From the NCBI RefSeq assembly GCF_000374065.1, contig NZ_KB893245.1, positions 372,001 to 436,000 of the forward strand: a stretch of DNA of 64,000 nucleotides. Reading direction: 5' to 3'. Source of the stretch: Spirosoma luteum DSM 19990. Lineage in GTDB: Bacteria; Bacteroidota; Bacteroidia; Cytophagales; Spirosomataceae. The notes below the pieces were generated by a model. It worked only from the letters and a program-made list of their open reading frames with translations, was not told where the DNA came from and did no database searches. This document shows positions 5,802-42,898 of this stretch, in pieces. A program made the translations under genes and the position numbers. The first letter of the stretch is position 1, and every line of letters starts with the position of its first letter.

Positions 5802-7238
5802 ATGAATCATCAAACGAAGCAACAGCAACTGCGGTATTTGTTTGCCCGGGCCGGGTTTGGTGCCACACCCGCCGAATTGAACGAGGCTTCCCGGAGTACG
5901 CTCAGGAAAGTGGTTCGCCAACTGGTGAGCAACGGCAAATCGGTAGCGAGTTTGCAGGTTGTTGAGCCCGATGAGAACCGAACGAAACGCCAGTTGAAGG
6001 GTATGTTTCGCCAGGGACAACTCGACAAGGAGATGCTCCGGGAGCAAATCCGAGCCAACGCCCAGAAAGTGCGCGACCTGAATTTACAGTGGCTGGACCG
6101 GATGGTTTCCGGTACCGATGTCCTGCGCGAAAAAATGGCTCTGTTCTGGCACGGTCATTTCGCCTGCCGGACCATGGGGCGAAACCCGCTGTTTATGCAG
6201 CAGTACGCCAATACGCTCCGGGAGCACGCGCTGGGAAACTTCCGCGATTTGCTGATGGCGGCATCGAAAGAACCGGCCATGCTGCAATTTCTGAATAACC
6301 AGCAGAACCGGAAAAACGCCCCCAACGAAAACTTCGCCCGTGAAGTAATGGAGCTGTTTACGCTCGGTCGGGGCAACTACTCCGAATTCGACATTAAAGA
6401 AGCCGCCCGGGCTTTTACGGGCTGGCAGTTTACGCCCGAAGGTGAGTTTGTTTTTCGGGCGCAGGTACACGACGATGGAGAGAAAAAAATATTCGGCAAA
6501 ACGGGGACGTTCAACGGCGAGGACGTTATTGCTATGCTGCTCGAAAATCCGCAGACGGCCCGGTTCATTACGGCAAAAATCTACCGCTTCTTTGTGAATG
6601 AAACGGAGGATAAAAAACGAGTCGACCAACTGGCCGAGCAGTTCTACAAAAACGGATACGACATTGCCGCCCTGATGGAGACCATCTTCATGGCCGACTG
6701 GTTTTACGACGCTAAAAACATAGGTGCTCACATCAAGTCGCCGGTTGAGTTACTGGTGGGGTTACGGCACACGCTGGGTGTGCAGTTCGACCAGCCACAA
6801 CCGCAGATTTTTGTGCAGCGAACGCTGGGGCAACTGCTGTTCTACCCGCCCAACGTGGCGGGTTGGCCGGGCGGTAAAAACTGGATCGACTCATCGAGTC
6901 TGTTGTTCCGGATGCAGTTGCCCAATTATGTGCTCAAGACGGCCGAAGTGACGGTGCAGCCCAAAGAAGATGGTGATGTGAACACGCAGTTGCTGGCCCG
7001 CAAAGGCGGAACCACCTTTCGTACAACGGTGAACTGGGACGATTTTGAGAAGGAATTCACCAAAACGACCGATGCCGGGTTACCCGATGCCCTGGCGGCT
7101 TTCCTGCTGCCTTTCCCCCTGCGACCCGACCAGCGTATTTTGATTGAGAAACAGACTAAAACGGGGCAATCCCGTTCTGAACAGATTCGTATGGTAACCG
7201 CAGCCCTCATGAGCCTGCCGGAGTATCAACTAACGTAA
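5802..7238 (+). CDS. DUF1800 domain-containing protein
   Basis: This 478-residue protein belongs to DUF1800. Recognisable blocks are an N-terminal RYLFARAGFGAT, a central MALFWHGHFAC near residue 112, NENFAREVMELFTLG near residue 175, AARAFTGWQF near residue 205, and PPNVAGWPGGKNW near residue 355. DUF1800 proteins are almost always encoded beside DUF1501 proteins, as here (7329-8537). The biochemical role of the pair is not established; links to export and surface polymer handling have been suggested. No classical signal peptide is visible. The two genes are separated only by a palindromic element (7236-7322) and probably form an operon. Confidence 0.93.
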   Translation: MNHQTKQQQLRYLFARAGFGATPAELNEASRSTLRKVVRQLVSNGKSVASLQVVEPDENRTKRQLKGMFRQGQLDKEMLREQIRANAQKVRDLNLQWLDRMVSGTDVLREKMALFWHGHFACRTMGRNPLFMQQYANTLREHALGNFRDLLMAASKEPAMLQFLNNQQNRKNAPNENFAREVMELFTLGRGNYSEFDIKEAARAFTGWQFTPEGEFVFRAQVHDDGEKKIFGKTGTFNGEDVIAMLLENPQTARFITAKIYRFFVNETEDKKRVDQLAEQFYKNGYDIAALMETIFMADWFYDAKNIGAHIKSPVELLVGLRHTLGVQFDQPQPQIFVQRTLGQLLFYPPNVAGWPGGKNWIDSSSLLFRMQLPNYVLKTAEVTVQPKEDGDVNTQLLARKGGTTFRTTVNWDDFEKEFTKTTDAGLPDALAAFLLPFPLRPDQRILIEKQTKTGQSRSEQIRMVTAALMSLPEYQLT

Positions 7239-7322
7239 AGAGTGAAAGTGCGAATGAATGAAAGAGTGTACGATAAACACAACCCCTTTCGCTAATTCAT
7301 GCTTTCACTCATTCACTCTTTA
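7236..7322. repeat. GAGTGAAA-type intergenic palindrome, copy 1
   Basis: The element begins inside the TAA stop of the DUF1800 gene and ends 6 nt before the ATG of the DUF1501 gene, so it fills the whole gap. The left half is purine-rich (AAAGAGTGAAAGTGCGAATG) and the right half pyrimidine-rich (CTTTCACTCATTCACTCTTT). The outer 11 bases pair perfectly; inner octamers are degenerate. Four other copies are in this window. Confidence 0.85.
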
Positions 7323-7328
7323 CCAATT

Positions 7329-8537
7329 ATGAATCGCAGAAAATTCCTGAAACAATCGGCTTTTACTACGGCGGGAACAATGCTAATTCCGCATTTCCTA
7401 AAAGCCTACGAAGCGCAGATGATGGGTCAGGGACTGGCCGCATCGAACGGTAAAATTCTGGTTGTCGTGCAATTGTCAGGTGGTAATGACGGGTTGAATA
7501 CCGTTGTACCGTACCGGAATGATATCTACTACCGCGAACGCCCAACCATTGCCATCAAACCTGAAAAGGTGCTTACCCTGAATGACGAGATTGGACTGCA
7601 TCCGGCCATGACTCCGCTGAAAGCCCTGTACGACGAAGGGCTGGTGACGGTCATCAATAACGTGGGCTACCCGAACCCCGACCGCTCGCACTTCCGGTCG
7701 ATGGATATCTGGCAAACGGCCAGTGATTCCGATGCGTACCTGCAAACGGGCTGGGTTGGCCGGTATCTGGATGCTGCCTGCGCAGGTAAGGCACAGCAGC
7801 CGTTCCGTACTATCGAGGTCGATGATACGCTTAGTCTGGCCATGAAGGGCAACAGCCTGAACGGACTGGCCATGCTGGACCCCAAAAAACTCTACAGCCA
7901 GACCCGGAGTAATCTGGTCACCAACCTGAGTAAAGAGCACTCAACCAACGAGCCGGAAACGGTCTCGTACCTGTACAAAACCCTGGCCGAGACGGTATCT
8001 TCGGCGGAGTATGTGTTCAACAAGGCGAAGGTGCCCGGTACGAATACCACCTACCCGAATGGCGAATTGGGGAACCGGCTCAAAACGGTATCACAATTGA
8101 TTCAGGCAGGGGTAGATACCAGCGTGTATTACGTGTCGATAAGCGGATTCGATACGCACATCAATCAGCCGGGGCAGCAGGAACGACTGCTGGGTCAATA
8201 CGCTGAAGCGGTTGGGGCGTTCATGACGGATTTGAAAGCGGCAGGGCGTCAGAATGACATAATGCTCATGACCTTTTCCGAGTTTGGTCGGCGGGTGAAG
8301 CAGAATGCCAGCAACGGTACCGACCACGGTACGGCGAATAACGTCTTTCTGATTGGTGGTGGATTACCCGCCAAACGCGTGCTCAACGAAGCCCCCAATC
8401 TGAGCAAACTAACCGACGGCGATTTGACCTATTCGGTGGATTTTCGCCAAATCTACGCCACGCTCCTGCATGACTACCTTGGAGTCGACGATGTAGCTAT
8501 TCTGGGCCGTAAATTCAACGGGGTCAAAATTGTGTAG
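7329..8537 (+). CDS. DUF1501 domain-containing protein, Tat-exported
   Basis: This 402-residue protein starts with a twin-arginine signal MNRRKFLKQSAFTTAGT, which fixes the start at 7329; an ATG 30 nt upstream lies inside the palindromic element. DUF1501 blocks are visible: LVVVQLSGGNDGLNTVVPY near residue 45, PDRSHFRSMDIWQTA near residue 120, a GFDTH motif near residue 270 and FSEFGRRV with a DHGTAN motif near residues 310-335. The family is related to the alkaline-phosphatase/sulfatase fold and is exported as a folded protein. It is the usual partner of DUF1800. The molecular activity is not known. Confidence 0.93.
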   Translation: MNRRKFLKQSAFTTAGTMLIPHFLKAYEAQMMGQGLAASNGKILVVVQLSGGNDGLNTVVPYRNDIYYRERPTIAIKPEKVLTLNDEIGLHPAMTPLKALYDEGLVTVINNVGYPNPDRSHFRSMDIWQTASDSDAYLQTGWVGRYLDAACAGKAQQPFRTIEVDDTLSLAMKGNSLNGLAMLDPKKLYSQTRSNLVTNLSKEHSTNEPETVSYLYKTLAETVSSAEYVFNKAKVPGTNTTYPNGELGNRLKTVSQLIQAGVDTSVYYVSISGFDTHINQPGQQERLLGQYAEAVGAFMTDLKAAGRQNDIMLMTFSEFGRRVKQNASNGTDHGTANNVFLIGGGLPAKRVLNEAPNLSKLTDGDLTYSVDFRQIYATLLHDYLGVDDVAILGRKFNGVKIV

Positions 8538-8563
8538 GCGTTGACATTGGCCCTTGTAAAAGT

Positions 8564-8603
8564 GCCAATCCGGGATATCAGCTTCATCAATAGCCGGATT
8601 GGC
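8564..8603 (+). terminator. Hairpin terminator after the DUF1501 gene
   Basis: GCCAATCCGG (8564-8573) pairs perfectly with CCGGATTGGC (8594-8603), followed by GTATCCTTTT. It lies 26 nt after the stop codon. Confidence 0.6.
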
Positions 8604-8689
8604 GTATCCTTTTCAGTGTCAGGATTAAATTTTAGCAGCTATACGCTCAAATTATGCCTGAATGTGTGTTATTTCGCAAAGAGTCAGGT

Positions 8690-8697
8690 TAATTTTG
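8690..8697 (+). promoter_or_regulatory. -7 promoter box abutting purE
   Basis: TAATTTTG matches TAnnTTTG exactly. Only 3 nt separate it from the purE ATG at 8701, so the predicted transcription start falls on or next to the start codon. No clear -33 TTG is seen. Confidence 0.6.
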
Positions 8698-8700
8698 TGA

Positions 8701-9183
8701 ATGGTAGGTATTATAATGGGTAGCCTCTCTGACCGAAACGTCATGCAGGAGGCCGCCGACAGTTTGACCGAATTAGGCGTTGCGTGGGAGATGGATATCG
8801 TTTCTGCTCACCGGACACCCGAAAAAATGGTCGATTACGCTAAAACGGCCCGCGACCGTGGGCTACGGGTTATCATTGCCGGGGCAGGGGGGGCCGCTCA
8901 CCTGCCGGGCATGGTTGCCTCACTGACTACCCTTCCCGTTATTGGGGTACCCGTCAAATCCAGCAATTCGATTGATGGCTGGGATTCCGTTCTGTCCATC
9001 CTGCAAATGCCCTCCGGTGTACCCGTGGCCACGATGGCCCTTAACGGTGCTCGTAACGCCGGTATTCTGGCCGCGCAGATTGTGGGTACCTACGATGCCG
9101 CCGTTGAACAAAATCTCACCCTGTTTAAAGAAAATCTCAAAGAAAAAGTGGCTCAGATGAGCCAACAGTTAACGACTCCCTAA
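8701..9183 (+). CDS. purE: 5-(carboxyamino)imidazole ribonucleotide mutase
   Basis: This 160-residue class I PurE moves the carboxyl group of N5-CAIR to give CAIR in purine synthesis. The signature is clear: VGIIMGSLSDRNVM at residues 2-15, SAHRTPEKM near residue 36, and the glycine-rich IAGAGGAAHLPGM near residue 60 with GVPVKSS near residue 83. The length is normal. The start at 8701 gives the usual N-terminus, and a -7 promoter box ends 3 nt before it, so the mRNA is likely leaderless. A LysM protein follows 12 nt after the stop and is probably co-transcribed. purM lies 3 kb away in the same direction but in a separate unit. Confidence 0.96.
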   Translation: MVGIIMGSLSDRNVMQEAADSLTELGVAWEMDIVSAHRTPEKMVDYAKTARDRGLRVIIAGAGGAAHLPGMVASLTTLPVIGVPVKSSNSIDGWDSVLSILQMPSGVPVATMALNGARNAGILAAQIVGTYDAAVEQNLTLFKENLKEKVAQMSQQLTTP

Positions 9184-9195
9184 CCAGTGAACGAT

Positions 9196-10020
9196 ATGGA
9201 TACTGACAACAAAACAACCAACGCCCGGCCCACCGGAAACTCCAGTCTGCCTGCCATTACGCTGGTGGTGTTGGTGGGGCTTATTGCCGCGCTGCTTTAC
9301 GTGGGATACGGATACATCACCGACGATACGAATGGCTCCGACGAACTGACTAACGTAGCCATCGATTCAACAACGCAACAGCCACTGGCGCAGAATGACC
9401 CGGAGATGCTAATGGCGCCCGAAGGGGATGACAACGCCACGCAACCCGCCCCCGTAGACCTGTCGCAGGCAGCTCCGCCCGCCGATGCACCCGAAGTGAA
9501 TGCGGCTGCCGAAGAAGTAGCCGAAGCCAACCGCGAAACTACCAATGGGAAACCTGCTACTGCGGAGAAACCCAAATCGGAGAAGCCAAAAGTAGAGAAG
9601 CCGGTGGAAAAAGCGGTTGCAGCAAAGCCGGTAGAGAAGCCTAAAGCCGAAAAACCCAAGACGGAAGCGGTTGCCGAAAAACCGGTGGAAAAGGTAACCG
9701 TCAAACCCGGTGGCGTATCGAGTACGTACACGGTGGGGTCTGGTGAAACATTCTACGGGGTAGCAAATCGGTATAATATGAAACTCAGTACCCTGAAGGC
9801 CCTCAACCCCGGCGTATCCGAAAGCGATGTGAAAGCGGGTATCACGAAGTTAAACGTGAAAGCTATGGCCGTTCACACCGTAGGGCCGGGTGATGTGCTG
9901 CGGGTGGTAGCCCAGAAATATGGTGTGAGCAAAGAAGCCATTATGCGGGCCAACAAAAAAACGAAGGACATTGCCTCTCGGGGTGAGCGACTGGTAATTC
10001 CCTTTCCTGATAAGCAGTAA
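9196..10020 (+). CDS. Membrane-anchored LysM domain protein with Pro/Lys/Glu-rich linker
   Basis: This protein of about 274 residues has one N-terminal transmembrane segment (roughly residues 19-39, LPAITLVVLVGLIAALLYVG), a long disordered linker rich in A, E, K and P with repeated KPKxEKPxxEK units (about 90-175), and two C-terminal LysM modules. The first begins YTVGSGETFYGVANRYN, the second HTVGPGDVLRVVAQKYG. LysM modules bind peptidoglycan, so the protein probably spans from the inner membrane to the cell wall. ATG at 9196 was preferred; an in-frame GTG at 9187 would add three residues. It follows purE by 12 nt. Confidence 0.85.
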   Translation: MDTDNKTTNARPTGNSSLPAITLVVLVGLIAALLYVGYGYITDDTNGSDELTNVAIDSTTQQPLAQNDPEMLMAPEGDDNATQPAPVDLSQAAPPADAPEVNAAAEEVAEANRETTNGKPATAEKPKSEKPKVEKPVEKAVAAKPVEKPKAEKPKTEAVAEKPVEKVTVKPGGVSSTYTVGSGETFYGVANRYNMKLSTLKALNPGVSESDVKAGITKLNVKAMAVHTVGPGDVLRVVAQKYGVSKEAIMRANKKTKDIASRGERLVIPFPDKQ

Positions 10021-10044
10021 GGCCCGGAAAGGGTTATCTTCTAT

Positions 10045-10359
10045 CTAAAGCTTTTTTTTGCGCGGATTAATCCGAGTTAACGAGTCTATTTTTAACTCTT
10101 TAAATTGCTTCCCCAGTAATTCTACTCCTTTCCCGGAGAGAACTTCGGGTGTTTCATGCGTTTCCATTCGCCGGGTGGGCATGTCTACGGCCATTCCAGC
10201 GCCTTTTCTGATAGGAATAGGCACCGGGTTGCCCCCATCCCTGATAACCGGCATATTATCCAGGTTTTTGAGCGAGTCGACCCCGACTGCCCGGGAGCTT
10301 TGCTGTGCGAAACAGGTTGAAGCCGCAAGCAGGCATCCAACGGCGATAAATGATTTCAT
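10045..10359 (-). CDS. Small exported protein, unknown function
   Basis: This 104-residue protein has a signal peptide (MKSFIAVGCLLAASTCFAQ, cleavage after about residue 19). The mature part of about 85 residues is rich in charged and proline residues (NPVPIPIRKG, PTRRMETHETPEVL) and ends in a basic KKK tail. I recognise no family. A cysteine inside the signal does not look like a lipobox, so it is probably a soluble periplasmic protein. The credible signal peptide and the gap that it fills between the LysM and DUF481 genes support a real gene. Confidence 0.6.
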   Translation of the reverse strand: MKSFIAVGCLLAASTCFAQQSSRAVGVDSLKNLDNMPVIRDGGNPVPIPIRKGAGMAVDMPTRRMETHETPEVLSGKGVELLGKQFKELKIDSLTRINPRKKKL

Positions 10360-10427
10360 GAGTTACTAATCGTCTGTTTGTCAATGTAACAGACCCTATC
10401 CGACAGGAAAAGGTTGGAATGAACACC

Positions 10428-11279
10428 TCACTTGCGCTCGTAGGTCAGGCCAACGGTGAACCGTAAATCGTTGTTTTTCCGGCCGGGCACTACCAGACTC
10501 TCGTAGGCATTGGCCAGAGTAGAACGCAAACTAACAACCTCTGTAATCTTTAGCTGAACGCTCAAACTGGCATTCCACCGAACGTTGTACCGGCCTAACG
10601 CTGGTTGGTAGAAAGCGGTGTGGGTTACCCTAATCCGGTCGTTATCGAACGAGTATTCCCCAAATAAACGCGCTGAATTACGAATAATAGAAATGTCATT
10701 AAGTTCGGTGAAGTCCGTGCTTTCGCTGAGTATCACATCGGTAAGAGAAATGTATGCCCGTTTACGGTTCAGAAGTTTATAGCCAGCACCCGCTGCTGCC
10801 GTCAACCGCCGATTAATTTGTCGCAGGTTACTGCGCTCGTACGACCCGAAGGCCAGGTAATACAGTCGTCGCTCGCCCCGGTAGGTTGTCCGCAAATCGC
10901 CAAAATACTCCCGTTCAGCCAGGATGCCGTTCTGCTTGCCATACACAAAAGATGGATTGCTGGATAACCTGAAATAATTACTTAACCGGTAGTCAACGGA
11001 ACTGGTCAGTTGCAGCAGTGCCCGATCCACATTCCCGGCTGTAATGGTCCCATCGGCCGTGAACCGATACCGGAATACATGCACGACGGGATTCTTAACC
11101 ACAATCGTATCAATTTTTATCTGGCCCGTAGCGGTTCTGCTGGTATCGGTTTTACTGGTTTTTACCGAGTCGGAAAGCGAAGGACGCAATGGGTCAGGCT
11201 GTTCCACAATCTGGGCGTTTGCTAATCCACCCAGGAAAAGAAAAACAGTAAGTAAGACAAACGACTGGTAGTTTTTCAC
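10428..11279 (-). CDS. DUF481 family outer-membrane protein
   Basis: This 283-residue protein has a signal peptide (LLTVFLFLGGLANAQ), a Ser/Thr/Asp-rich region to about residue 65, then an antiparallel beta pattern of alternating hydrophobic residues: FTADGTITAGNVDRALLQL, SSNPSFVYGKQNG, YYLAFGSYERSNLRQ and a terminal RFTVGLTYERK. This is the pattern of DUF481 (YdiY-like), which forms outer-membrane barrels of unknown role. The terminal aromatic/charged strand supports barrel insertion. It is transcribed leftward, divergent from the Gfo/Idh/MocA gene. Confidence 0.75.
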   Translation of the reverse strand: MKNYQSFVLLTVFLFLGGLANAQIVEQPDPLRPSLSDSVKTSKTDTSRTATGQIKIDTIVVKNPVVHVFRYRFTADGTITAGNVDRALLQLTSSVDYRLSNYFRLSSNPSFVYGKQNGILAEREYFGDLRTTYRGERRLYYLAFGSYERSNLRQINRRLTAAAGAGYKLLNRKRAYISLTDVILSESTDFTELNDISIIRNSARLFGEYSFDNDRIRVTHTAFYQPALGRYNVRWNASLSVQLKITEVVSLRSTLANAYESLVVPGRKNNDLRFTVGLTYERK

Positions 11280-11293
11280 TGAAAAAAGCCTTG

Positions 11294-11326
11294 TTGAATC
11301 CGCAACTTAAAAAAAAGGTACATTTG
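11294..11326 (+). promoter_or_regulatory. Promoter for the Gfo/Idh/MocA gene
   Basis: TTG at 11294-11296 and TACATTTG at 11319-11326 are separated by 22 nt, close to the Bacteroidota consensus. The ATG lies 56 nt downstream of the -7 box. Confidence 0.6.
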
Positions 11327-11382
11327 GCGACTGACCCGAGGGTCATTTTCTTGATTTATTGCTAACGAATAAACCCTTTATT

Positions 11383-12348: not shown

Positions 12349-12358
12349 GAGAGAAAAT

Positions 12359-12422
12359 GAAAAGGGGCGGAAAGAGGGATTGGCAGGGGAAATCTGCCCG
12401 TTCCTCCTTTCCGCCCCTTTTC
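12359..12422. terminator. GA/CT-rich hairpin between the oxidoreductase gene and purM
   Basis: The arms 12359-12379 (GAAAAGGGGCGGAAAGAGGG) and 12402-12422 pair with two mismatches, and the right arm ends in CCCCTTTTCTT. It probably terminates the upstream gene. It resembles the GAGTGAAA palindromes in being purine-rich on the left and pyrimidine-rich on the right. Confidence 0.65.
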
Positions 12423-12423
12423 T

Positions 12424-12431
12424 TACCTTTG
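12424..12431 (+). promoter_or_regulatory. -7 promoter box abutting purM
   Basis: TACCTTTG matches TAnnTTTG and ends 4 nt before the purM ATG at 12436, predicting a leaderless transcript. It directly follows the hairpin 12359-12422. No -33 TTG is apparent. Confidence 0.55.
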
Positions 12432-12435
12432 CCGC

Positions 12436-13614: not shown

Positions 13615-13651
13615 TTTTGTGTAGCTTACGGCAATAATTGATTGCCTGACT

Positions 13652-14773: not shown

Positions 14774-14794
14774 CTGGAATTTTGGCAGCCTGTT

Positions 14795-32637: not shown

Positions 32638-32645
32638 CAAAATTA
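32638..32645 (-). promoter_or_regulatory. -7 promoter box for prfA
   Basis: The complement of 32638-32645 reads TAATTTTG, a TAnnTTTG match 56 nt upstream of the prfA start codon. No good -33 TTG is seen. Confidence 0.45.
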
Positions 32646-32751
32646 CAAAAATCGCGGCAGTTCGATTATGTATTGGTTGATTGCAACCAAGCCGTTGTTG
32701 GTGTGGTTTTCTATCTGAATGACGATATGTATCACTATTGAGTTCCTGTTT

Positions 32752-33333: not shown

Positions 33334-33363
33334 GTATCTTTCGTAGAAACAGATTTTGCTGAC

Positions 33364-34005: not shown

Positions 34006-35027
34006 CCATCAGCCCAGGCAATCAACTGCCTTGCCGTTTCTGTCGGCTTATCTTCCCGAATTTCTATAGGATGAACCTGAGTCGCATCGCGCTGGGACAG
34101 GCCGTGTAAATAGGCTTTATCGTAGTAGTCCAGCGTAAGGTCGGCCACGGTAGCATAATCGTTTCGCATCAGGGCATCCAGTGCCTCTTTCGTTACTTTC
34201 CCGCCCAGGCGCTTCTGAATCCGTTCCGTTGCATCCACTAATAGCTGATGGTCGATACCGGCGTATTCGTGAACCAGACGTTCTACCCGGCACGATTTTG
34301 TTACATCGATAAAAGCAACCGGCGCGGCCCGCATCTGGTGCCAGAGTGGCATCGGAATAAAGCAGGAACCGATGCTCCGGCTTTCGTCTTCAAGCCAGAT
34401 GCGTTTGGTACAGTCGAGTTGCCGCCACTGCTGATGAATAAGATTTTCAAACTGTTCCGTAGCGGGTTGTGGGTCCTGACCAATAGCCCCGTAGGTTGAG
34501 CCTTTATGATTGGCCAGCCCTTCCAGGTCGATGATTTGTTCACCCTGCCGGGCCAGTTCCTTCAGAATATCGGTTTTGCCGCTCCCCGTTTTACCCCCCA
34601 GAATTAGCAGCTTTTTAGGCTCCAGAAAGGCTGAAAGTACCGTGTTTCGGTACGCTTTGTAGCCGCCCACCAGCGTCGATGCCGTGAGTCCGGCAGTGTC
34701 CAGCAACCAGGCAAACGAGCTGCTGCGCATGCCGCCACGCCAACAGTGAACCAGTACTTCTTTCCCCTGTGGGTTGAGTTTTTTCGACTGTTTTACAAAG
34801 TCAGCCAATTTTGGTCCTACCAGAGAAAGTCCGAGCAAAACCGCTGAATCTTTGCCCGCGTTTTTATACTTTGTACCCACCTGCGCCCGCTCGTCATTAT
34901 CGAATAGGGGAATACTAACCGCCCCCGGAATATGCGCATGCTGGTACTCTCCCGGCGACCGGACATCGATAATGGGCAGGGTTTGGGCTTTGTCTAAAAA
35001 CTCTTCAACCGGGTGTTTGTGAATCAT
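33978..35027 (-). CDS. mnmH: tRNA 2-selenouridine(34) synthase
   Basis: This 349-residue protein has an N-terminal rhodanese domain ([19 protein letters not shown]) with its cysteine in [13 protein letters not shown] near residue 94, and a C-terminal P-loop domain ([12 protein letters not shown] near residues 142-153). MnmH converts 2-thiouridine at the tRNA wobble position to 2-selenouridine through a geranylated intermediate, using selenophosphate. No selD is in the window. The start codon overlaps the pdxJ stop by 4 nt (35024-35027), so the two are translationally coupled. The 3' end overlaps the convergent Uma2 gene. Confidence 0.92.
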
Positions 35028-35743
35028 TGGATGCTCAGGCAGCGTAAATAGAGTTGAATAGTATTCTCCAGACCCAGATAAAGAGCATCGCTTATCAGCG
35101 CATGGCCAATGGAAACTTCTTCGAGGTGGGGTATCTGCTCATTAAAATAACGTAGATTTTCCAGGCTCAAATCGTGCCCGGCATTCAGGCCCAGGCCAAT
35201 TTCCGTAGCTCGTTTGGCCGCGCGAACAAAGGGAGCAACGGCCGATTCCGGGTCCTGGAGATACTGCGTGGCGTATGGTTCGGTGTACAGCTCAATCCGG
35301 TCCGTACCAACTGCTTTCGCGCCATCAATCATCCGTTCGTCGGCATCCACGAAAATGGAAACGCGGATACCATCGGCTTTAAACGTGTCGATCAGTTTTC
35401 GCAGGTGGTCGGCGTGGCGAATGGTGTCCCAGCCTGCATTGGATGTAATGGCATCGGGCGCATCGGGCACGAGCGTTACTTGGGCTGGTTTTACCCGTTT
35501 CACTAACTCAATAAATCGCTCGTCGGGATTGCCTTCAATGTTGAACTCAGTCGTAACCACTTCATGTAGGTCCAGCACATCCTGATACCGAATGTGCCGT
35601 TCATCGGGGCGGGGGTGTACGGTAATGCCCTGCGCACCAAAACGTTCACAATCGAGGGCAACCTGTACCAGATTCGGGTTATTGCCGCCCCGCGCATTCC
35701 GAAGGGTCGCAATTTTGTTAATATTTACGCTTAAACGGGCCAT
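35024..35743 (-). CDS. pdxJ: Pyridoxine 5'-phosphate synthase
   Basis: This 239-residue TIM barrel condenses 1-deoxyxylulose 5-phosphate with 3-amino-2-oxopropyl phosphate to pyridoxine 5'-phosphate. Motifs are clear: [17 protein letters not shown] at residues 4-20, [13 protein letters not shown] near residue 40, [27 protein letters not shown] and [13 protein letters not shown] near residue 190. The length is normal. It is the first gene of an operon with mnmH. A GAGTGAAA-type palindrome begins 7 nt upstream of its start codon and separates it from the divergent yqeY gene. Confidence 0.95.
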
Positions 35744-35750
35744 GTATAGT

Positions 35751-35873
35751 AAAGAGCGAAAGTACGAAAGAGCGAAAGAGTTAATTGGCGCTCTTGGTTT
35801 TGTAACTTTGCAGCAAGAGTGAAGGTTCAGTAGTTTTTTATCGCTCTTTCACTCATTCACTCTTTCGTTCTTT
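35751..35873. repeat. GAGTGAAA-type intergenic palindrome, copy 2 (divergent gap)
   Basis: The left half starts AAAGAGCGAAAGTACGAAAG and the right half ends in TCACTCTTTCGTTCTTT. The halves are degenerate reverse complements with a central loop that holds a -7 box. The arms start 7 nt from the pdxJ start codon and end 4 nt before the yqeY start codon, so each divergent gene has a pyrimidine-rich arm directly before its ATG. Confidence 0.8.
35803..35810 (+). promoter_or_regulatory. -7 promoter box for yqeY
   Basis: TAACTTTG matches TAnnTTTG and lies in the centre of palindrome copy 2, 67 nt before the ATG. Transcripts starting here would carry only the right arm of the element. Confidence 0.5.
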
Positions 35874-35877
35874 AACT

Positions 35878-36327
35878 ATGTCGCTAAAACAACAAATCGA
35901 CGCGGATATAAAGCAGGCCATGCTGGCTAAAGATCAGGATAAATTACGGGCACTCCGGGCTATAAAATCAATGATTTTGCTCGAAGAAACCAAAGAAGGA
36001 CAGCACGGCGATCTTAAACCCGAAGACGAGACCCGAATTCTGACCAAAGCGGTGAAGCAGCGAAAAGACTCGGCCGATATTTACCGGCAGCAAAACCGCC
36101 CCGATCTGCTGACCGTAGAAGAAGCCGAGATTGCCGTTATCGAGAAATACCTGCCCCAGCAACTATCGGAAGCTGAGTTGAAAGAAAAACTACAGACCAT
36201 CATGAATCGCATCGGTGCATCGGCTTCCTCGGATATGGGTAAGGTGATGGGAGTTGCCACGAAGGAACTGGCTGGTCAGGCGGATGGGAAAGCCATCTCC
36301 GCCATGGTGAAGACGCTACTTTCTTAA
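35878..36327 (+). CDS. GatB/YqeY domain-containing protein
   Basis: This 149-residue protein is a stand-alone YqeY. The sequence begins LKQQIDADIKQAMLAKDQDKLRALR, has the helical middle RKDSADIYRQQNRPDL, and ends with SSDMGKVMGVATKELAGQADGKAISAMVK, the domain shared with the GatB tail that contacts tRNA in the amidotransferase complex. The separate protein has no proven activity. It starts 4 nt after palindrome copy 2 and its stop codon lies inside copy 3, so it is bounded by repeats on both sides in a run with cvpA and rlmN. Confidence 0.92.
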   Translation: MSLKQQIDADIKQAMLAKDQDKLRALRAIKSMILLEETKEGQHGDLKPEDETRILTKAVKQRKDSADIYRQQNRPDLLTVEEAEIAVIEKYLPQQLSEAELKEKLQTIMNRIGASASSDMGKVMGVATKELAGQADGKAISAMVKTLLS

Positions 36328-36411
36328 AGAGCAAAAGAGTGAAAAGTGAAAGAGTGAATGAACGACTCCGATAACTTTCACTCTTTCGCTCTTTCACTCA
36401 TTCGCTCTTTA
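36325..36411. repeat. GAGTGAAA-type intergenic palindrome, copy 3
   Basis: The element starts at the TAA stop of yqeY and ends 3 nt before the proposed TTG start of the CvpA gene. Left and right halves pair over about 37 bp with few mismatches. The right half includes TTCACTCTTTCGCTCTTTCA. Confidence 0.88.
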
Positions 36412-36414
36412 AAT

Positions 36415-36963
36415 TTGAACACACTCGACTTACTTATGCTGATTCCCCTGGCCTGGGGAGCGTTTAACGGTTACCGCAAAGGACTTCTGGTCGAAATTGT
36501 GGGCATCATTGCGTTTGTGGTGGCTATGATTGTGGGCTTCAAGTTTCTGGGATTTGGTATTGAGCTTTTAAGCCCGTATATCAGCCGGGAAGTGGCCCGA
36601 CGAATTCTGCCGTGGCTGGGTTTTTCCATCATCTTTTTCCCGACGGTGATGATGATTAATCAGGTAGGCTTCACTATCCGGCGATCCCTCAAATACTCGG
36701 TGCTAGGTACGTTCGATAGCGTAGCGGGGGCAGCCGTCGGTGTTTTTACGTGGGTATTTGGAATTAGTGTCATTCTTTGGCTGTTGAGTTATATGAATGT
36801 AAAAATGCCGCCCCGCCAGGTCGAAACGGCTTTTTTGTATCCTTATATTCGGCCCATTGCCCCAAAAGTGATGGATAAAGCCGCGGTATGGGTGCCGAAA
36901 GGACTGGAAGAAGGGAAAAAATGGCGGGCAGAAAATATAATGAGTGAAAGAGCGATAGAGTGA
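36415..36963 (+). CDS. CvpA family membrane protein
   Basis: This 182-residue protein has four transmembrane segments and the CvpA opening NTLDLLMLIPLAWGAFNGYR followed by KGLLVEIVGIIAF. Members are linked to colicin V production, purine genes and envelope homeostasis, without a defined activity. The start is taken as TTG at 36415, because family members normally begin MNTLD; an in-frame ATG at 36358 would add 19 residues that are only a translation of the palindrome. The C-terminal residues MSERAIE and the stop codon lie in palindrome copy 4. Confidence 0.82.
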   Translation: MNTLDLLMLIPLAWGAFNGYRKGLLVEIVGIIAFVVAMIVGFKFLGFGIELLSPYISREVARRILPWLGFSIIFFPTVMMINQVGFTIRRSLKYSVLGTFDSVAGAAVGVFTWVFGISVILWLLSYMNVKMPPRQVETAFLYPYIRPIAPKVMDKAAVWVPKGLEEGKKWRAENIMSERAIE

Positions 36964-37015
36964 AAGGCCAGTTTTATTCCTGACGCTCTTTTATTCTATC
37001 GCTCTTTCACTCTTT
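36941..37015. repeat. GAGTGAAA-type intergenic palindrome, copy 4
   Basis: A perfect 17-bp core pairs 36943-36959 (AGTGAAAGAGCGATAGA) with 36995-37011. The left arm overlaps the last codons of the CvpA gene and the right arm ends 4 nt before the rlmN ATG at 37020. Confidence 0.88.
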
Positions 37016-37019
37016 GACC

Positions 37020-38081
37020 ATGAAACAGGACATCCGCAAAACAACGCCCGCTCAACTGAAAGACTGGCTTACCCAGCAGGGTGAACAGGGCTTCCGGGCG
37101 AAACAGGTGCACGAGTGGCTTTGGAAGAAATCGGCCCGGTCGTTTGAGCAAATGACGAACCTGTCATTGTCCACGCGGGACTTGCTCAATGCTCATTTTG
37201 AGATTCGACCGCTTACCATTGCTGAAGAACAGCGCAGTAACGACGGCACCATCAAATCCTCGTTCCGGCTCTTCGACGGTAATCTGGTGGAAGGGGTGCT
37301 GATTCCAGCTTTGCGTAATAGCGACCAGGAGCGCGACGGCGCACCGAGAATGACGGCCTGTGTATCGAGTCAGGTAGGTTGCTCGCTGACCTGCAAATTC
37401 TGCGCGACGGGCTATATGGACCGTAAGCGCAACCTGGATGCCGCCGAAATTTATGACCAGGTAGTGGCCATTGACCGGCAGGCGAAAGAGAATTATGATG
37501 CCCCGCTTTCCAACATCGTGTACATGGGCATGGGAGAGCCGCTGTTGAACTACAAAAACGTCCTCGAATCCGTCGACCGCATCACCTCGCCCGATGGCCT
37601 GGGAATGTCGCCGAAGCGAATTACGGTTTCTACAGCGGGTATCGCCAAAATGATACGGCAACTGGGCGATGATGCCGTGAAGTTTAATCTGGCGTTGTCC
37701 TTACACGCGGCTAATGACCAGAAACGCGATCAGATTATGCCCATCAACGAGAGCAATACGCTTGACGTGCTGGGCGATGCGCTGGGTTATTTTTACAAAA
37801 AGACGGGTACCCGGATTACCTTCGAATACATCCTGTTCTACAACTTCAACGACACAGTACAGGACGCTCAGGAACTCTGGAAGTTTACAAAGCGTGTTCC
37901 GGCCAAGATTAATATCATTGAATACAACCCCATTGCGGAGGCAAACTTCAAAAATACCGATCCTCAGACACTGGATAAGTTTGCCGGATTCCTGGAAAGT
38001 AAAGGCGTGACGGTCAATGTGCGTCGGAGCCGCGGAAAAGACATCGATGCCGCCTGTGGTCAACTGGCCGGAAAGAAGTAA
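37020..38081 (+). CDS. rlmN: 23S rRNA (adenine(2503)-C(2))-methyltransferase
   Basis: This 353-residue radical-SAM enzyme methylates A2503 of 23S rRNA and A37 of some tRNAs. The iron-sulfur cluster motif is C121-x3-C125-x2-C128 in CSLTCKFCATGYMDRKRN. NIVYMGMGEPLLNY near residue 163 is typical, and the methyl-carrying cysteine near the C-terminus is C346 in DAACGQLAGKK. The family is RlmN, not Cfr, by overall pattern and housekeeping context. The start is the ATG at 37020; a TTG two codons upstream is the alternative. The palindrome copy 4 ends 4 nt before it. Confidence 0.95.
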   Translation: MKQDIRKTTPAQLKDWLTQQGEQGFRAKQVHEWLWKKSARSFEQMTNLSLSTRDLLNAHFEIRPLTIAEEQRSNDGTIKSSFRLFDGNLVEGVLIPALRNSDQERDGAPRMTACVSSQVGCSLTCKFCATGYMDRKRNLDAAEIYDQVVAIDRQAKENYDAPLSNIVYMGMGEPLLNYKNVLESVDRITSPDGLGMSPKRITVSTAGIAKMIRQLGDDAVKFNLALSLHAANDQKRDQIMPINESNTLDVLGDALGYFYKKTGTRITFEYILFYNFNDTVQDAQELWKFTKRVPAKINIIEYNPIAEANFKNTDPQTLDKFAGFLESKGVTVNVRRSRGKDIDAACGQLAGKK

Positions 38082-38141
38082 CGGGGTCAACTACCTTACG
38101 TGTGTTAACAATTTGGTAATACGGCTCTGCGCTGTTTGGCG

Positions 38142-38149
38142 TACTTTTG
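38142..38149 (+). promoter_or_regulatory. -7 promoter box for the phosphate transporter gene
   Basis: TACTTTTG matches TAnnTTTG, 57 nt before the ATG at 38207. A TTTG at 38112-38115 is a possible but rather distant -33 element (26-nt spacer). Confidence 0.5.
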
Positions 38150-38206
38150 TGGCAATCATCAGCTTACGGACCCACCGTTGGCCTGTTCACAGAAGACAAC
38201 TTTCTC

Positions 38207-39628
38207 ATGTTTGGATTAGAAACGGATGTTTTTATCCTCCTCTTCATCAGCCTCTTCGCTGCCTGTGCCTTTGAATTTGTAAATGGTTTTCATGATACGG
38301 CAAACGCCGTTGCTACCGTCATTTACACCAACTCGCTAAAACCAACCGTTGCCGTTGTCTGGTCGGGCATTTGCAACTTTGCGGGGGTTTTACTGGGCGG
38401 TATCGGGGTGGCCATGGGTATTGTGAACCTACTGCCGGTCGAGTTGCTGGTCGATCAGAACGTATACCACAGCATCGCCATGGTATTAGCCCTGCTGATC
38501 AGCGCTATTATCTGGAACTTGGGAACCTGGTATTTTGGTTTGCCCAGTTCCAGTTCGCATACGTTGATTGGTTCTATTCTGGGAGTGGGCCTGGCGTTTG
38601 CCACAATGCCCGAAAACAAGACAGGGTCTGCCGTTAACTGGGATAAAGCCATCGAAACGGGCGAAGCGCTGCTGCTGTCACCCCTGCTGGGTTTTAGCCT
38701 GGCCATTATATTGATGTTTTTACTTCGCCGGTTCGTGAATGAGGAAGCCAAAGCCCAGTTGTTCAAAGAGCCTAAAAAAAATGCTCCTCCGCCAGCCTGG
38801 ATTCGGGCTATCCTGGTCACGACCTGTTCGCTGGTGAGTTTCTTCCACGGAAGTAATGACGGTCAGAAAGGAGTAGGGTTAATTATGCTTATCCTGATTG
38901 GCGTCGTTCCGTACCATTTTGCCATTAAAACCGATCTCGACCCCAGCCTTCTAAGTACTAATATTAGCGGGATTGAGCAAAGCATCGCTACGCTGGATTC
39001 AACCCGCCTTTCGGCGGTTAACCGGGCCCGGTTAATGCAGACGCGAAACGAACTGGCCGGATTGAATAAACTGGTCAATGGTCCTTTGGTTGACAACAGG
39101 ATTCCAAACGAGGAGAGACTGGAAGTTCGTCGTGACCTGTTGCTGATTAACAGCAATATGAAAAAAATTGTGGAAGACGAAGGGGCTAACCTGAGTGCGA
39201 GTCAGGTGGCAACGCTGAACGTAAACCTGGGCGAAGAAAAAGGGCTGCGCCGGTTCACGGACTACGCGCCGTTGTGGGTTATTTTGATGATTGCCCTATC
39301 CTTAGGACTCGGGACCATGATTGGTTGGCGACGGATTGTAGTGACCGTAGGCGAAAAGATTGGTAAACAGCACCTGACGTACGCGCAGGGTGCGTCTGCC
39401 GAGCTGGTAGCCGCCGTCATGATTGGCGTAGCGTCGGGCCTGAAACTACCCGTTAGTACTACACACGTGCTCTCATCGGGCATTGCGGGTACTATGGTAG
39501 CTAACAAAGGCATTAAAAACCTCCAGGCTGATACGGTTCGTAACATTGCTCTTGCCTGGATACTTACACTGCCCGTTACGGTACTGTTATCGTTTACGCT
39601 CTACATATTCTTCCGCTGGCTGTTGTAG
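38207..39628 (+). CDS. PiT family inorganic phosphate transporter
   Basis: This 473-residue membrane protein of the PiT/PHO4 family has both signature repeats: FVNGFHDTANAVATVIYTNSL near residues 25-45 in the N-terminal half and SFFHGSNDGQKGVGLIMLI near residue 210 in the C-terminal half. It has 10-11 transmembrane helices with a soluble loop of about 110 residues (residues 240-350, rich in RLEVRRDLLLIN-type helices) between them. It imports phosphate by proton or sodium symport. ATG at 38207 starts the family-typical N-terminus. No DUF47/PhoU-like partner gene is next to it. Confidence 0.92.
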   Translation: MFGLETDVFILLFISLFAACAFEFVNGFHDTANAVATVIYTNSLKPTVAVVWSGICNFAGVLLGGIGVAMGIVNLLPVELLVDQNVYHSIAMVLALLISAIIWNLGTWYFGLPSSSSHTLIGSILGVGLAFATMPENKTGSAVNWDKAIETGEALLLSPLLGFSLAIILMFLLRRFVNEEAKAQLFKEPKKNAPPPAWIRAILVTTCSLVSFFHGSNDGQKGVGLIMLILIGVVPYHFAIKTDLDPSLLSTNISGIEQSIATLDSTRLSAVNRARLMQTRNELAGLNKLVNGPLVDNRIPNEERLEVRRDLLLINSNMKKIVEDEGANLSASQVATLNVNLGEEKGLRRFTDYAPLWVILMIALSLGLGTMIGWRRIVVTVGEKIGKQHLTYAQGASAELVAAVMIGVASGLKLPVSTTHVLSSGIAGTMVANKGIKNLQADTVRNIALAWILTLPVTVLLSFTLYIFFRWLL

Positions 39629-39640
39629 AAGCCAGGTTCG

Positions 39641-40516
39641 TTAGCGTTGCGTGTAATCAGACAAAGGTAAGCCGTCGCCATCATCGCGAACGGTATTGAG
39701 AATCTGTTCAACTTCGCGAACCCGTTCGGTATCGCCGTTTTTCTCGAAAGCCAGGGTCAAATTCCGGAGTACCCGCCGAACGATGTCGGCATTGGTGCAG
39801 GGCTGATAAAAGGTGTCCAGCCGTTTAATGTTCAACTGGTCGATGTACTGGTCAATGTCCTTGGTAGTGAAAACCAGCCCCCGGTTAAATACGTTGATGT
39901 AAAACTGAACACCCGCGTTGTTTTTGTAGGTGAGCACAAACAAGTTAGGCAGATTTACGCCGTAAACGGGCAGATTTAACCGTTTGGCAATGAGCATATA
40001 CAGTACACAAAGCGTGATGGGATTGCCCCGGCGCGATTCGAGCACCTGATTGATCATGGAATTGGCCGGGGAGTGGAAATGCTTCGTGTTGGGCGCAAAT
40101 TTCAGTTTCGAGAAAAAAGCCGTATTCATCGCCTTTATCTGTTCATCGGGATGCATATCCATTTTGAAGTCCACCCACACATCATAGAACAACTGTTCAA
40201 CATCCTGCTTGAGCTTATGCAGCGAGAGGTCAGGATATTGATAGGTGGCCACAATCCACAGTCCTTCCAGTAAATCCATTGCCCCGCCGTTTTTCCAGTC
40301 GCGCATCCGGTCCAGAACGGATTCGTATTGGAGGTCATGGATAATTTCTTCGATGCGCTTCTGGAGGGCGGAATTAAAACTCCCTTCCCACTCCGTTTCC
40401 AGGAGTGGAATCATTTGCCCGCCCATCTGCCGAATTCGCTGTTCGACGTGGTCCACAACTTCCGGGTCTTCGTCGTCCAGAAGCGAAATAAGGGCTTTCA
40501 ACTCGTTGTCGTTCAT
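39641..40516 (-). CDS. Transglutaminase-like / SirB1 family protein
   Basis: This 291-residue protein has an N-terminal helical region with a HEAT-like start (ELKALISLLDDEDPEVVDHVEQ) and a central transglutaminase-core-2 domain: DEQIKAMNTAFF, ANSMINQVLESRRGNPITLCVLYMLIA with a conserved Cys near residue 180, and a C-terminal helical tail. SirB1-family proteins are widespread and cytoplasmic; their activity is unproved despite the transglutaminase-like fold. It is transcribed leftward, convergent with the phosphate transporter gene and divergent from galE. Confidence 0.85.
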   Translation of the reverse strand: MNDNELKALISLLDDEDPEVVDHVEQRIRQMGGQMIPLLETEWEGSFNSALQKRIEEIIHDLQYESVLDRMRDWKNGGAMDLLEGLWIVATYQYPDLSLHKLKQDVEQLFYDVWVDFKMDMHPDEQIKAMNTAFFSKLKFAPNTKHFHSPANSMINQVLESRRGNPITLCVLYMLIAKRLNLPVYGVNLPNLFVLTYKNNAGVQFYINVFNRGLVFTTKDIDQYIDQLNIKRLDTFYQPCTNADIVRRVLRNLTLAFEKNGDTERVREVEQILNTVRDDGDGLPLSDYTQR

Positions 40517-40582
40517 TCGTATAGATTACCAGGCTGAGTATCCTCAGAATAAATACTACTTTCGTAAACCTCCTGAATATAC

Positions 40583-40590
40583 TACTTTTG
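40583..40590 (+). promoter_or_regulatory. -7 promoter box for galE
   Basis: TACTTTTG matches TAnnTTTG, 56 nt before the proposed TTG start at 40647. TTTCG at 40560-40564 is a partial -33 match with a spacer of about 18 nt. Confidence 0.5.
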
Positions 40591-40646
40591 TTGGGTTGTA
40601 CGACCTGCTACGTTAAAGTAGCAACAAAATTTTCATAGAAAACAGT

Positions 40647-41693
40647 TTGACTCCTACAGGCAATTCCCCCAAAATTCTGGTTACCGGCGGAGCTGGGTTT
40701 ATTGGTTCCCACACGGTTGTTTCGCTGGTTGAGGCTGGTTTTGAACCGGTTATCATTGATGATTTCTATAACTCAGAGCGTTCTGTACTCGACGGATTAA
40801 AGGCGATTTTAAATCGGGATATTACCTGCTACCCGGTTGATTGTAATGACGCTGCGGCCATGGCCGACATCTTCCAGAAAGAAAGCCCCGCTGGTATTAT
40901 TCACTTTGCGGCTTACAAAGCCGTTGGTGAATCGGTGGCTGAACCGCTGAAATACTACCGTAATAATCTGGACTCGCTGTTATTATTGCTGGAAATGATG
41001 CCCAAATACGGTGTGCAAAACCTCGTGTTTTCGTCGTCCTGCACCGTTTATGGTCAGCCAGAGCAGTTGCCCGTTACGGAAGAAACGCCCCGTCTGCCTG
41101 CGCAGTCACCTTATGGGAACACGAAAGCCATTGGCGAAGACATCATTCGGGATGCTGTACGGGCCAAGCTGCCCGTCAAAGCGCTGGCGCTTCGGTATTT
41201 CAATCCAATCGGGGCACATCCTTCTGCCGAAATCGGTGAGTTACCCTTGGGCGTTCCCGCCAATCTTGTTCCCTTTATCACGCAGACGGCGGCCGGTATC
41301 CGGTCCAGCCTGACCGTGTATGGCAACGACTATGACACGCCGGATGGTACCTGCATTCGCGACTATATTGATGTAATGGATTTGGCGGATGCCCACGTGG
41401 CGGCTCTCCGTAAGCTAATCAATGAGTCAGCCACGAGTCTCTACGATGTGATTAACATTGGCACTGGCAGGGGTGAAACCGTTCTAAACGTTATAAAAAC
41501 GTTTGAACAGGTAACGGGTGTCGATGTAAACTATCAGATTGGCCCACGCCGGGCTGGCGATGTGGAACAGGTTTATGCCGATGTCTCGAAAGCCAATCAG
41601 GTGCTGGGATGGACAGCCCGTCGTTCGCTGGCCGAATCATTGCGTGATGCCTGGAAGTGGCAGCAGAAAATCAGCCAGCGTGAGCGAAAGTAA
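40647..41693 (+). CDS. galE: UDP-glucose 4-epimerase
   Basis: This 348-residue extended SDR interconverts UDP-glucose and UDP-galactose. The NAD motif GGAGFIGSHT is at residues 14-23, the catalytic serine is in SSSCTVYG and the YxxxK is in PYGNTKAIGED near residue 155; the family phrase RYFNPIGAHPS near residue 184 and RDYIDVMDLADAHVAAL near residue 240 are present. The start must be TTG at 40647, since an in-frame stop lies at 40614 and no ATG or GTG falls between. It heads a nucleotide-sugar cluster with rfbB and rfbA. Confidence 0.93.
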   Translation: MTPTGNSPKILVTGGAGFIGSHTVVSLVEAGFEPVIIDDFYNSERSVLDGLKAILNRDITCYPVDCNDAAAMADIFQKESPAGIIHFAAYKAVGESVAEPLKYYRNNLDSLLLLLEMMPKYGVQNLVFSSSCTVYGQPEQLPVTEETPRLPAQSPYGNTKAIGEDIIRDAVRAKLPVKALALRYFNPIGAHPSAEIGELPLGVPANLVPFITQTAAGIRSSLTVYGNDYDTPDGTCIRDYIDVMDLADAHVAALRKLINESATSLYDVINIGTGRGETVLNVIKTFEQVTGVDVNYQIGPRRAGDVEQVYADVSKANQVLGWTARRSLAESLRDAWKWQQKISQRERK

Positions 41694-41751
41694 GGTTCGC
41701 CGGTATGCTTATTGCACATTGCTAAAAACAGTAGATAAGAAACAATAAATC

Positions 41752-42819
41752 ATGAAACTATTAATCACCGGTGGGGCCGGATTTATCGGGTCGCACGTTG
41801 TCCGGCTGTTCGTTACCAAATACCCTGAATACCAGATTTACAACCTCGATGCGTTGACCTACGCCGGGAACCTGGCCAACCTGTCGGACATTGAGCACGC
41901 GCCAAACTATACGTTCATAAAAGGGGATATTACCGACGCCAAATTTCTGGAGGATATGTTCACCGAACTTTCCTTTGATGGGGTCATCCACCTCGCAGCC
42001 GAATCGCACGTCGACCGCTCCATTACCGACCCCATGTCGTTCGTGATGACCAACGTGGTTGGAACGGTAAACCTGCTCAATGCCGCCAAAGATAGCTGGA
42101 AGGGTACCGACGGTAAGGCAGCTTACGAGGGTAAGCGTTTCTATCATGTCTCAACCGATGAGGTGTACGGTTCCCTCCACAATCCGGAAGATTTCTTTAC
42201 CGAAGAAACGGCTTATGAGCCGCAGTCTCCTTATTCCGCTTCCAAAGCGGCTTCGGATCATTTTGTTCGGGCTTATGGCAACACCTACAAGTTGCCGGTA
42301 GTAATCTCTAACTGCTCCAATAACTACGGTCCGAATCACTTCCCGGAGAAACTGATTCCGCTGATGATTCATAACATCCAGACCAACAAACCGCTGCCCG
42401 TGTACGGCAAAGGAGAGAACGTCCGGGACTGGCTGTATGTCGTCGATCATGCCCGCGCTATCGATGCCGTTTTCCACACCGGCAAACTGGGCGAAACTTA
42501 TAATATTGGTGGTTTTAATGAATGGAAGAACCTCGATCTGGTACACCTGCTATGCCAGATTATGGACCGCAAGCTGAATAGGGAAGAGGGTACTTCCGCT
42601 AAATTAATTACCTACGTAACGGATCGGGCCGGGCATGACCTTCGGTACGCCATTGATGCCCATAAGATTATGAATGAACTGGGCTGGCAACCGTCGCTTC
42701 AGTTTGAAGAAGGTCTCGAAAAAACGGTCGACTGGTTCCTGGCCAATCAATCCTGGCTCGACAATGTCACATCAGGTGCCTACCAAGGCTATTATCAGGA
42801 CATGTACGCAAATCGTTAA
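41752..42819 (+). CDS. rfbB: dTDP-glucose 4,6-dehydratase
   Basis: This 355-residue extended SDR converts dTDP-glucose to dTDP-4-keto-6-deoxyglucose. It shows TGGAGFIGSHV at residues 5-15, HLAAESHVDRSI near residue 82, the STDEVYGSL motif near residue 130 and SPYSASKAASDHFVRAY near residue 162, where Y and K are catalytic. NNYGPNHFPEKLIPLMI and GENVRDWLYVVDHARA are RmlB-specific. Together with rfbA downstream it makes the dTDP-sugar precursor for surface polysaccharide. rfbC and rfbD are not in the window. Confidence 0.96.
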   Translation: MKLLITGGAGFIGSHVVRLFVTKYPEYQIYNLDALTYAGNLANLSDIEHAPNYTFIKGDITDAKFLEDMFTELSFDGVIHLAAESHVDRSITDPMSFVMTNVVGTVNLLNAAKDSWKGTDGKAAYEGKRFYHVSTDEVYGSLHNPEDFFTEETAYEPQSPYSASKAASDHFVRAYGNTYKLPVVISNCSNNYGPNHFPEKLIPLMIHNIQTNKPLPVYGKGENVRDWLYVVDHARAIDAVFHTGKLGETYNIGGFNEWKNLDLVHLLCQIMDRKLNREEGTSAKLITYVTDRAGHDLRYAIDAHKIMNELGWQPSLQFEEGLEKTVDWFLANQSWLDNVTSGAYQGYYQDMYANR

Positions 42820-42898
42820 CAAAGGTGAAAGAGCGAATGAGTGAATGAGCGTTTTCAATGCTTTCACTCATTTGCTCTTTCACTCTTTTACTCGTTAA
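42812..42898. repeat. GAGTGAAA-type intergenic palindrome, copy 5
   Basis: The outer GTTAAC (42815-42820) pairs with GTTAAC-like bases at 42894-42899, and the core GTGAAAGAGCGAATGAGTGA pairs with the right arm at 42861-42884 with two mismatches. It fills the gap from the rfbB stop to 2 nt before the rfbA ATG. Confidence 0.85.

Follow-up and report, generated by a model that had tools for sequence, protein, structure and literature searches.

The elements described here are intergenic palindromic repeats with an unusual feature, i.e., at a given gene junction their shape recurs from species to species and their sequence does not. They are located mainly between co-directional genes, where they commonly extend from the stop codon of one gene to the start codon of the next, and at the yqeY-cvpA junction the palindrome sits where the two genes overlap by 4 nt in other relatives. 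The arms of these elements stay complementary while unrelated words replace their sequence. These observations suggest that the sequence counts for less than the shape and the place. As an explanation, we propose that the elements are intercistronic palindromic spacers that are made and re-made at the level of the DNA, and that are tolerated on the shared message by means of their folding; this proposal may well be right and may equally be wrong.

The window, i.e., the whole stretch of 64,000 nucleotides that was analysed, contains the five palindromes reported in the original prediction, and the predicted RNA fold of each of them beats 200 of 200 of its own shuffles (z from -4.6 to -10.1). 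The first one (7236–7322) lies between a DUF1800 gene (5802–7238) and a DUF1501 gene (7329–8537), and it opens with the TAA stop codon of the DUF1800 gene. The second (35751–35873) occupies the gap between the divergent genes pdxJ (35024–35743, minus strand) and yqeY (35878–36327, plus strand); both of its arms flank a promoter-like motif, TAACTTTG (35803–35810, plus strand), that is located in the loop and has the form TAnnTTTG, which we take to be the -7 promoter element of the Bacteroidota. The third (36325–36411) runs from the stop codon of yqeY (TAA at 36325) to the start of cvpA, which is probably the TTG at 36415, directly after the element and 21 nt ahead of an ATG. The fourth (36941–37015) lies on the 3' end of cvpA and reaches nearly to the start of rlmN (37020); its left arm is formed by the 3'-terminal part of the cvpA reading frame, whose TGA stop codon (36961) falls inside the arm. 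The fifth (42812–42898) is located between an rmlB-like gene (41752–42819) and an rmlA/rfbA-like gene (42901–43761). Filling of the gap from stop to start, as had been claimed, is the usual arrangement, but it does not apply to 35751–35873, which lies between the start codons of pdxJ and yqeY. It was also correctly noted that the neighbouring genes are unrelated, that the elements are unlike an IS, and that the copies are not identical and carry reordered units of 7–8 nt. In the window's elements these units are mostly of 8 nt, and rare units are mirrored between the arms. The two-octamer consensus GAGYGAAWGAGYGAAW has 34 matches with three mismatches or fewer in the window versus 4.6 expected, a number that was reached by none of 100 dinucleotide shuffles of the window, and 31 of the 34 are inside the five elements. 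A sixth palindrome (47695–47786, MFE z -4.6) also fills its gap and uses a vocabulary of 7-mers similar to AATGGATGATG; its place and shape, but not its words, assign it to the same class. A scan of the window with Rfam 15 at the gathering score gave no matches, and a comparison of the element at 36322–36415 with plasmid and phage records gave no match at E 0.01.

The five palindromes are not the only copies in this genome. Exact GARYGARWGARYGAR words occur 149 times in the 6.6 Mb of its 68 contigs versus 2 for the reversed control, and the 1.065-Mb contig that holds the window has by itself 17 elements in the order purine then pyrimidine and none in the opposite order. At the family level, one or more matches were detected in 197 of 222 genomes; the counts range from 0 to 500 per genome, and many of the low ones do not exceed the control. 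A scan of named genomes yielded at least 118 loci, selected by the octamer pattern, many of them in Spirosoma, Larkinella, Fibrisoma, Fibrella and Dyadobacter, and others in Hymenobacter, Pontibacter, Saprospiraceae and scattered groups. The four named loci that most resemble the contig of the window are from Spirosoma (77.7–81.5% over 487–7709 bases), and its genus is therefore referred to as Spirosoma-like. A complete element is present in 49 of the 62 Spirosomataceae loci versus 10 of the 56 others, where the assignment to the family was made by hand from the titles and Emticicia and Arcicella were counted in. In the open-access literature, consulted mostly as titles and the openings of abstracts, we recognised no description of these elements.

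The position of the elements with respect to genes was established for a set of 89, found in 2.07 Mb that comprise the 1.065-Mb contig, six stretches of contig C2 and the 118 named loci. Genes were predicted with our own codon-score caller; therefore, start codons and the distances to them are approximate. Mapping the copies against these gene boundaries placed 71 elements between co-directional genes, 8 between divergent and 6 between convergent genes, 1 within a gene, and left 3 undetermined. Among the 71 tandem elements, 42 are flush on either side, with the stop codon of the preceding gene and the start codon of the following one, and in 64 the left end is placed at -35 to +14 nt relative to the end of the gene; the gene ends within the left arm in 44 of them, including 18 in which the first bases of the element are exactly the stop codon. 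The octamer detector found 89 elements in the purine-left order and 0 in the opposite one, which is partly a matter of design, since it searches for runs of GANN tetramers, purine then pyrimidine, and the opposite order was counted separately, in this set with a filter that drops the neighbours of other elements. Strong hairpins of any kind (MFE z below -3) were predicted in 48 of 75 convergent gaps of the window's genome, in 82 of 311 tandem gaps and in 3 of 60 divergent ones. Given that the gaps with elements are mostly tandem and that strong hairpins are commonest in convergent gaps, the GANN class is spread unlike the bulk of hairpins. Purine-left polarity was also tried as a rule for all tandem hairpins and was discarded, with 19 of 41 in this order, and 11 of 16 of those that fill the full gap. 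The TAnnTTTG motif is found in the loop of none of the 71 tandem elements and of 2 of the 8 divergent ones. In the region from -120 to 0 it precedes 7 of the 71 element-bearing genes versus 40 of 259 genes behind hairpin-less tandem gaps, the values for comparison being 63 of 260 for divergent gaps and 3 of 138 for tandem gaps under 30 nt; a lower frequency of promoter motifs ahead of element-bearing genes is only suggestive.

Counterparts of the window's elements are present at the same junctions in relatives. For yqeY-cvpA-rlmN, the sample consisted of 30 loci of the genus, in which 35 of 36 genomes gave a match, and of 30 chosen genomes of other genera. The yqeY-cvpA junction was measurable in 52 of the 60, and it is a 4-nt overlap in 12, a gap of 41 nt in 1, a gap of 45–180 nt in 38 and a longer one in 1; in 32 of the 38 gaps of 45–180 nt a hairpin above the threshold was predicted. 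In the genomes with the overlap the junction reads ATGA, GTGA or TTGA, and in those without it the yqeY stop and the cvpA start are at opposite ends of the gap, i.e., the quartet of the overlap is split. Overlap and long gap are found within a single genus (L293 versus L294 and L295), and this contrast also exists in the genus of the window (L225 versus the rest). Depending on the species, the words at this junction are GAGYGAAW, GATTGAAT, AATGGTTGA, ACAACGAACA, GGGCATGGGGCA or others, and across the orthologous gaps of relatives other vocabularies, such as GATTGAAT, AATGATG, AATGGTTGA, ACAACGA and GGGCATGGGGCA, are found. The GAGYGAAW family as first defined is therefore real but too narrow, being one vocabulary among several at the same gaps. 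The rmlB-rmlA junction has a gap of 45–180 nt in 25 of 29 loci (a set without L374), with a hairpin above the threshold in 17 of the 25; for DUF1800-DUF1501 the values are 15 of 23 and 8 of 15, the set being the 23 best loci, without the more distant L338–L344. A gap of this length separates cvpA and rlmN in 44 of 55 loci and only 7 of the 44 have a hairpin above the threshold, because the analysed sequence began at the stop codon and the end of cvpA, which often contains the left arm, was outside it. In the 64 hairpins of the four orthologous junctions, the left arm is over half purine in 62. Counted from the initial base of the stop codon, the median start of the stem is at 6 nt, which leaves 3 nt behind the stop; its median end lies 14 nt from the final base of the start codon, which leaves 11 nt ahead of the start.

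The comparison with the closest relative found (G211), which is 84–88% identical over most long matches and 72% in one, indicates how fast these sequences are rewritten. Two of eight element gaps are nearly unchanged (99.3 and 95.9% identity), two are partly changed (83.8 and 78.5%), and four show only 61–67%, which is the level of non-orthologous elements (63.0 ± 6.4%, highest 73); the flanks of seven of these gaps are nevertheless 85–91% identical. For individual elements, the identity is 99.3% at pdxJ-yqeY, 67.4% at 36325–36411 and 61.2% at 42812–42898. By eye, a purine and a pyrimidine arm are still present in all eight elements of the sister species.

In spite of this drift, the two arms of an element change together. 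At yqeY-cvpA the left arm scores 17.9 with its own right arm, 8.3 with those of other species and 5.6 with shuffled arms, and in each of the 38 cases the own score is above the mean of the between-species scores. The corresponding scores are 17.6, 8.9 and 5.6 at rmlB-rmlA (own higher in 23 of 25), 16.3, 9.2 and 5.8 at DUF1800-DUF1501 (13 of 15), and 8.8, 6.4 and 5.3 at cvpA-rlmN (33 of 44). Here, as for the non-GANN tandem hairpins and for pdxJ-yqeY, the shuffles preserve base composition only. When the comparison is made with the right arms of other junctions of the same genome, the own partner is better in 21 of 27, 22 of 26 and 16 of 20 cases (p 1.7e-3, 3.6e-4 and 4.8e-4), the last set, on the rlmN side, having been chosen by own score; among 23 elements of the window's genome it is better in 19 (p 9e-4) and the single best in 9, and all these p-values ignore kinship, related species not being independent. 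Since the own partner is superior to other arms of the same genome, the match of the arms exceeds what the vocabulary of the species provides. The picture is less clear in the pooled 89 elements, where the own score is 24.8 versus 19.6, and the partner is the single best match in only 4. A gene end is also mirrored in the opposite arm, as TTACAAT/ATTGTAA in the sister species and TTAAAG/CTTTAA in the genome of the window.

A process at the level of the DNA could produce this pattern. The nascent strand would fold back and copy one arm as the template for the other, i.e., by template switching, and slippage of units of 4, 7 or 8 nt would add, drop or reorder words; in this way the sequence could drift fast yet the arms stay matched, wherever intergenic sequence is free to change. 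Template switching between neighbouring inverted repeats has been described as a way to create, restore and perfect the stems of hairpins (PMC8794818). Possible signs of it in our data are the arms that change together and the mirrored gene ends. On the mRNA, the spacer would fold into one long hairpin that may bring the stop and the start near each other, and the downstream gene would keep the benefit of the terminating upstream ribosome in spite of the 60–150 nt between the two genes. We propose that the spacer is tolerated in the shared message because the fold keeps the stop and the start close. Translational coupling is stated to be most efficient at small distances (PMC12548453), and in Bacteroidetes SD motifs are present at few genes (PMC6728339). 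Against the explanation, the 8 divergent and 6 convergent elements are outside the scope of such a bridge. Genome-wide, closeness of stop and start in the predicted folds was found in none of 311 tandem gaps at p ≤ 1/60, and this path measure is uninformative because the ends of shuffled sequences come equally close.

Selection on the RNA is the strongest of the alternatives, and we consider it doubtful as the explanation of the elements. According to it, the hairpins stabilise or process the mRNA (protection as by REP, or a site for RNase III) or act in attenuation, and compensatory changes keep the pairing. The strong predicted folds, the co-directional gaps and the joint change of the arms are all in agreement with this, as is the general frequency of strong hairpins at 3' ends given above. 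Nevertheless, no excess of G.U over A.C mismatches is seen in the sense strand, with 61:65 in tandem elements and 42:39 at orthologous junctions, in a test that stands without a positive control (the non-GANN tandem hairpins gave 12:19). In addition, runs of four or more T accompany only 2 of 5 scored GANN tandem hairpins versus 26 of 45 convergent hairpins, and by their sequence the elements appear atypical as intrinsic terminators. The divergent pdxJ-yqeY gap is a further argument against this alternative. The two genes are divergent in all 26 loci in which pdxJ was found (of 30 examined), all 27 usable loci of the genus carry the TAnnTTTG motif in this gap, and paired arms are on both sides of it in 23 of the 27. 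A transcript that starts at this motif holds one arm only, so RNA pairing hardly explains this palindrome, and DNA-level copying between the arms can explain it. The mismatches of this gap, 13 G.T to 42 A.C in the sense of yqeY, show an asymmetry that our model does not account for. From the lack of a G.U excess and from the arms around the promoter-like motif, it follows that selection for RNA pairing is not sufficient by itself to account for the matched arms; the purely RNA-based reading of the original prediction, which considered folding and RNase III, is not borne out by these same results, nor is it directly refuted.

According to a second alternative, which we judge unlikely, the pyrimidine-rich right arm is the leader of the next gene, either a translation enhancer or a protein-binding repeat, and the palindrome is a by-product of a shared vocabulary. 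The purine-left order (89 to 0, in part by the design of the detector, and 62 of 64 at the four orthologous junctions) and the start codons close behind the right arm would agree with this, as would the scarce use of SD motifs in Bacteroidetes (PMC6728339). The TAACTGA heptamer repeats of Beggiatoaceae, Cyanobacteria and some Bacteroidetes offer a precedent, being tandem heptamers directly ahead of start codons; according to PMC4679880, they are direct repeats of one fixed word with only one inverted set in that genome. The palindromes differ from them in having inverted arms, mostly 8-nt units and changing words. Against a leader with an incidental palindrome are the better match of the own partner in the same-genome comparisons, the mirroring of rare units and gene ends, and the purine-left order in only 19 of 41 tandem hairpins.

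Even less probable are short mobile palindromes of the REP/MITE type that were spread by a transposase and then diverged. Copies throughout the genome, 12 Y1_Tnp matches in it, and gaps with and without the element in one genus are in favour of mobility. The REP/BIME elements with RAYT are likewise reported to be many-copy intergenic palindromes (PMC3733652, PMC2817692). Those described here differ in having longer arms of tandem degenerate units, and no conserved head was found. Near-identical copies were not encountered either, the best full-length paralogue of 36322–36415 being 78% identical among 40 scored of 86 candidates, and unrelated words occupy orthologous gaps. GANN words flank the transposase gene in none of the six Y1_Tnp neighbourhoods examined of the 12; other palindromes are found there, and one neighbourhood (L378) carries a AATGGATAATGAACAATG palindrome that draws on a different vocabulary. 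On the basis of these tests, the elements are not REP/RAYT. Chance or an assembly artefact has nothing in its favour and is almost certainly wrong, in view of the 0 of 100 shuffles, the 149 versus 2 words, and the counterparts in 197 of 222 genomes of the family at varying depth.

The proposed intercistronic spacers can also be compared with other known systems. Byps, the mitochondrial translational bypass elements, are hairpin-type elements. According to PMC4592705, they are insertions past which the translation machinery is proposed to move; they are inside coding sequences, whereas the palindromes lie between genes, where passage of the ribosome is a proposal. The MIRU (mycobacterial interspersed repetitive units) are short repeats at junctions, inserted at start codons with coupling kept, and they are described as containing a short ORF coupled with a -4 spacing inside the repeat (PMC12548453). 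The place typical of MIRU, the stop/start junction of co-directional genes, is also that of our elements (42 of 71 flush; overlaps in 12 of 52 loci at yqeY-cvpA); unlike MIRU, the palindromes have no conserved sequence and show unrelated words at one junction across species. Hairpins made by template switching resemble them in the DNA copying that creates and perfects inverted repeats; these were described for RNA genes (PMC8794818), whereas here a standing process at gene junctions is proposed. It is possible, as a tentative view, that the palindromes form a class of element defined by shape and place, i.e., a stop-to-start hairpin that replaces 4-nt overlaps in one clade, is re-invented in new words by DNA copying between the arms, and serves on the mRNA as a bridge for the terminating ribosome to the next start, as an intercistronic counterpart of the bypass hairpins.

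If the proposed explanation is true, covariation of paired arms, usually taken as proof of selection on RNA, can come largely from DNA copying between the arms, and this clade offers many natural replicates for testing covariation of this origin. Natural variants allow the contributions of shape and of sequence to be told apart, since the sequence at a single junction differs between related species. The elements would also illustrate the way in which operons of a phylum poor in SD motifs can accept long insertions where neighbouring genes are coupled.

Palindromes of other kinds were also seen in the 1.065-Mb contig that holds the window (C1). A second family there is built from GTTTACGGTTTATGG-like units of 7 nt, its left arm is not purine-rich, and its members lie at C1 positions 217994, 542059, 703321, 885517 and 959296. 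Within the window, the palindrome at 921-995 has arms of TTTTGTCATCCCGACGCAGGAGGGATCT, with close variants at positions 538619 and 757842 of the same contig, and the convergent gap at 3258-3347 holds the palindrome AGGTATCGCGGACTTCAGTCTGC. Other palindromes were found near the Y1_Tnp genes in six neighbourhoods of the S. luteum genome (L375-L380, from 12 matches), for example GTTCCGCAAGCGGGGGAA at L377.

Strong predicted hairpins are very common in convergent gaps of C1, where 48 of the 75 gaps of 40-200 nt showed an MFE z below -3. At the divergent pdxJ/yqeY gap (window 35744-35877) and its orthologues, the arm mismatches, read in the yqeY sense, comprise 42 A.C versus 13 G.T, i.e., a strand asymmetry.

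Among the matches listed, L098, L135 and L141 carry palindromes of the main, GANN class; their contigs come from metagenome assemblies and bear the labels Bordetella parapertussis and Anaerolineae. Either wrong binning or transfer may account for GANN palindromes under these labels.
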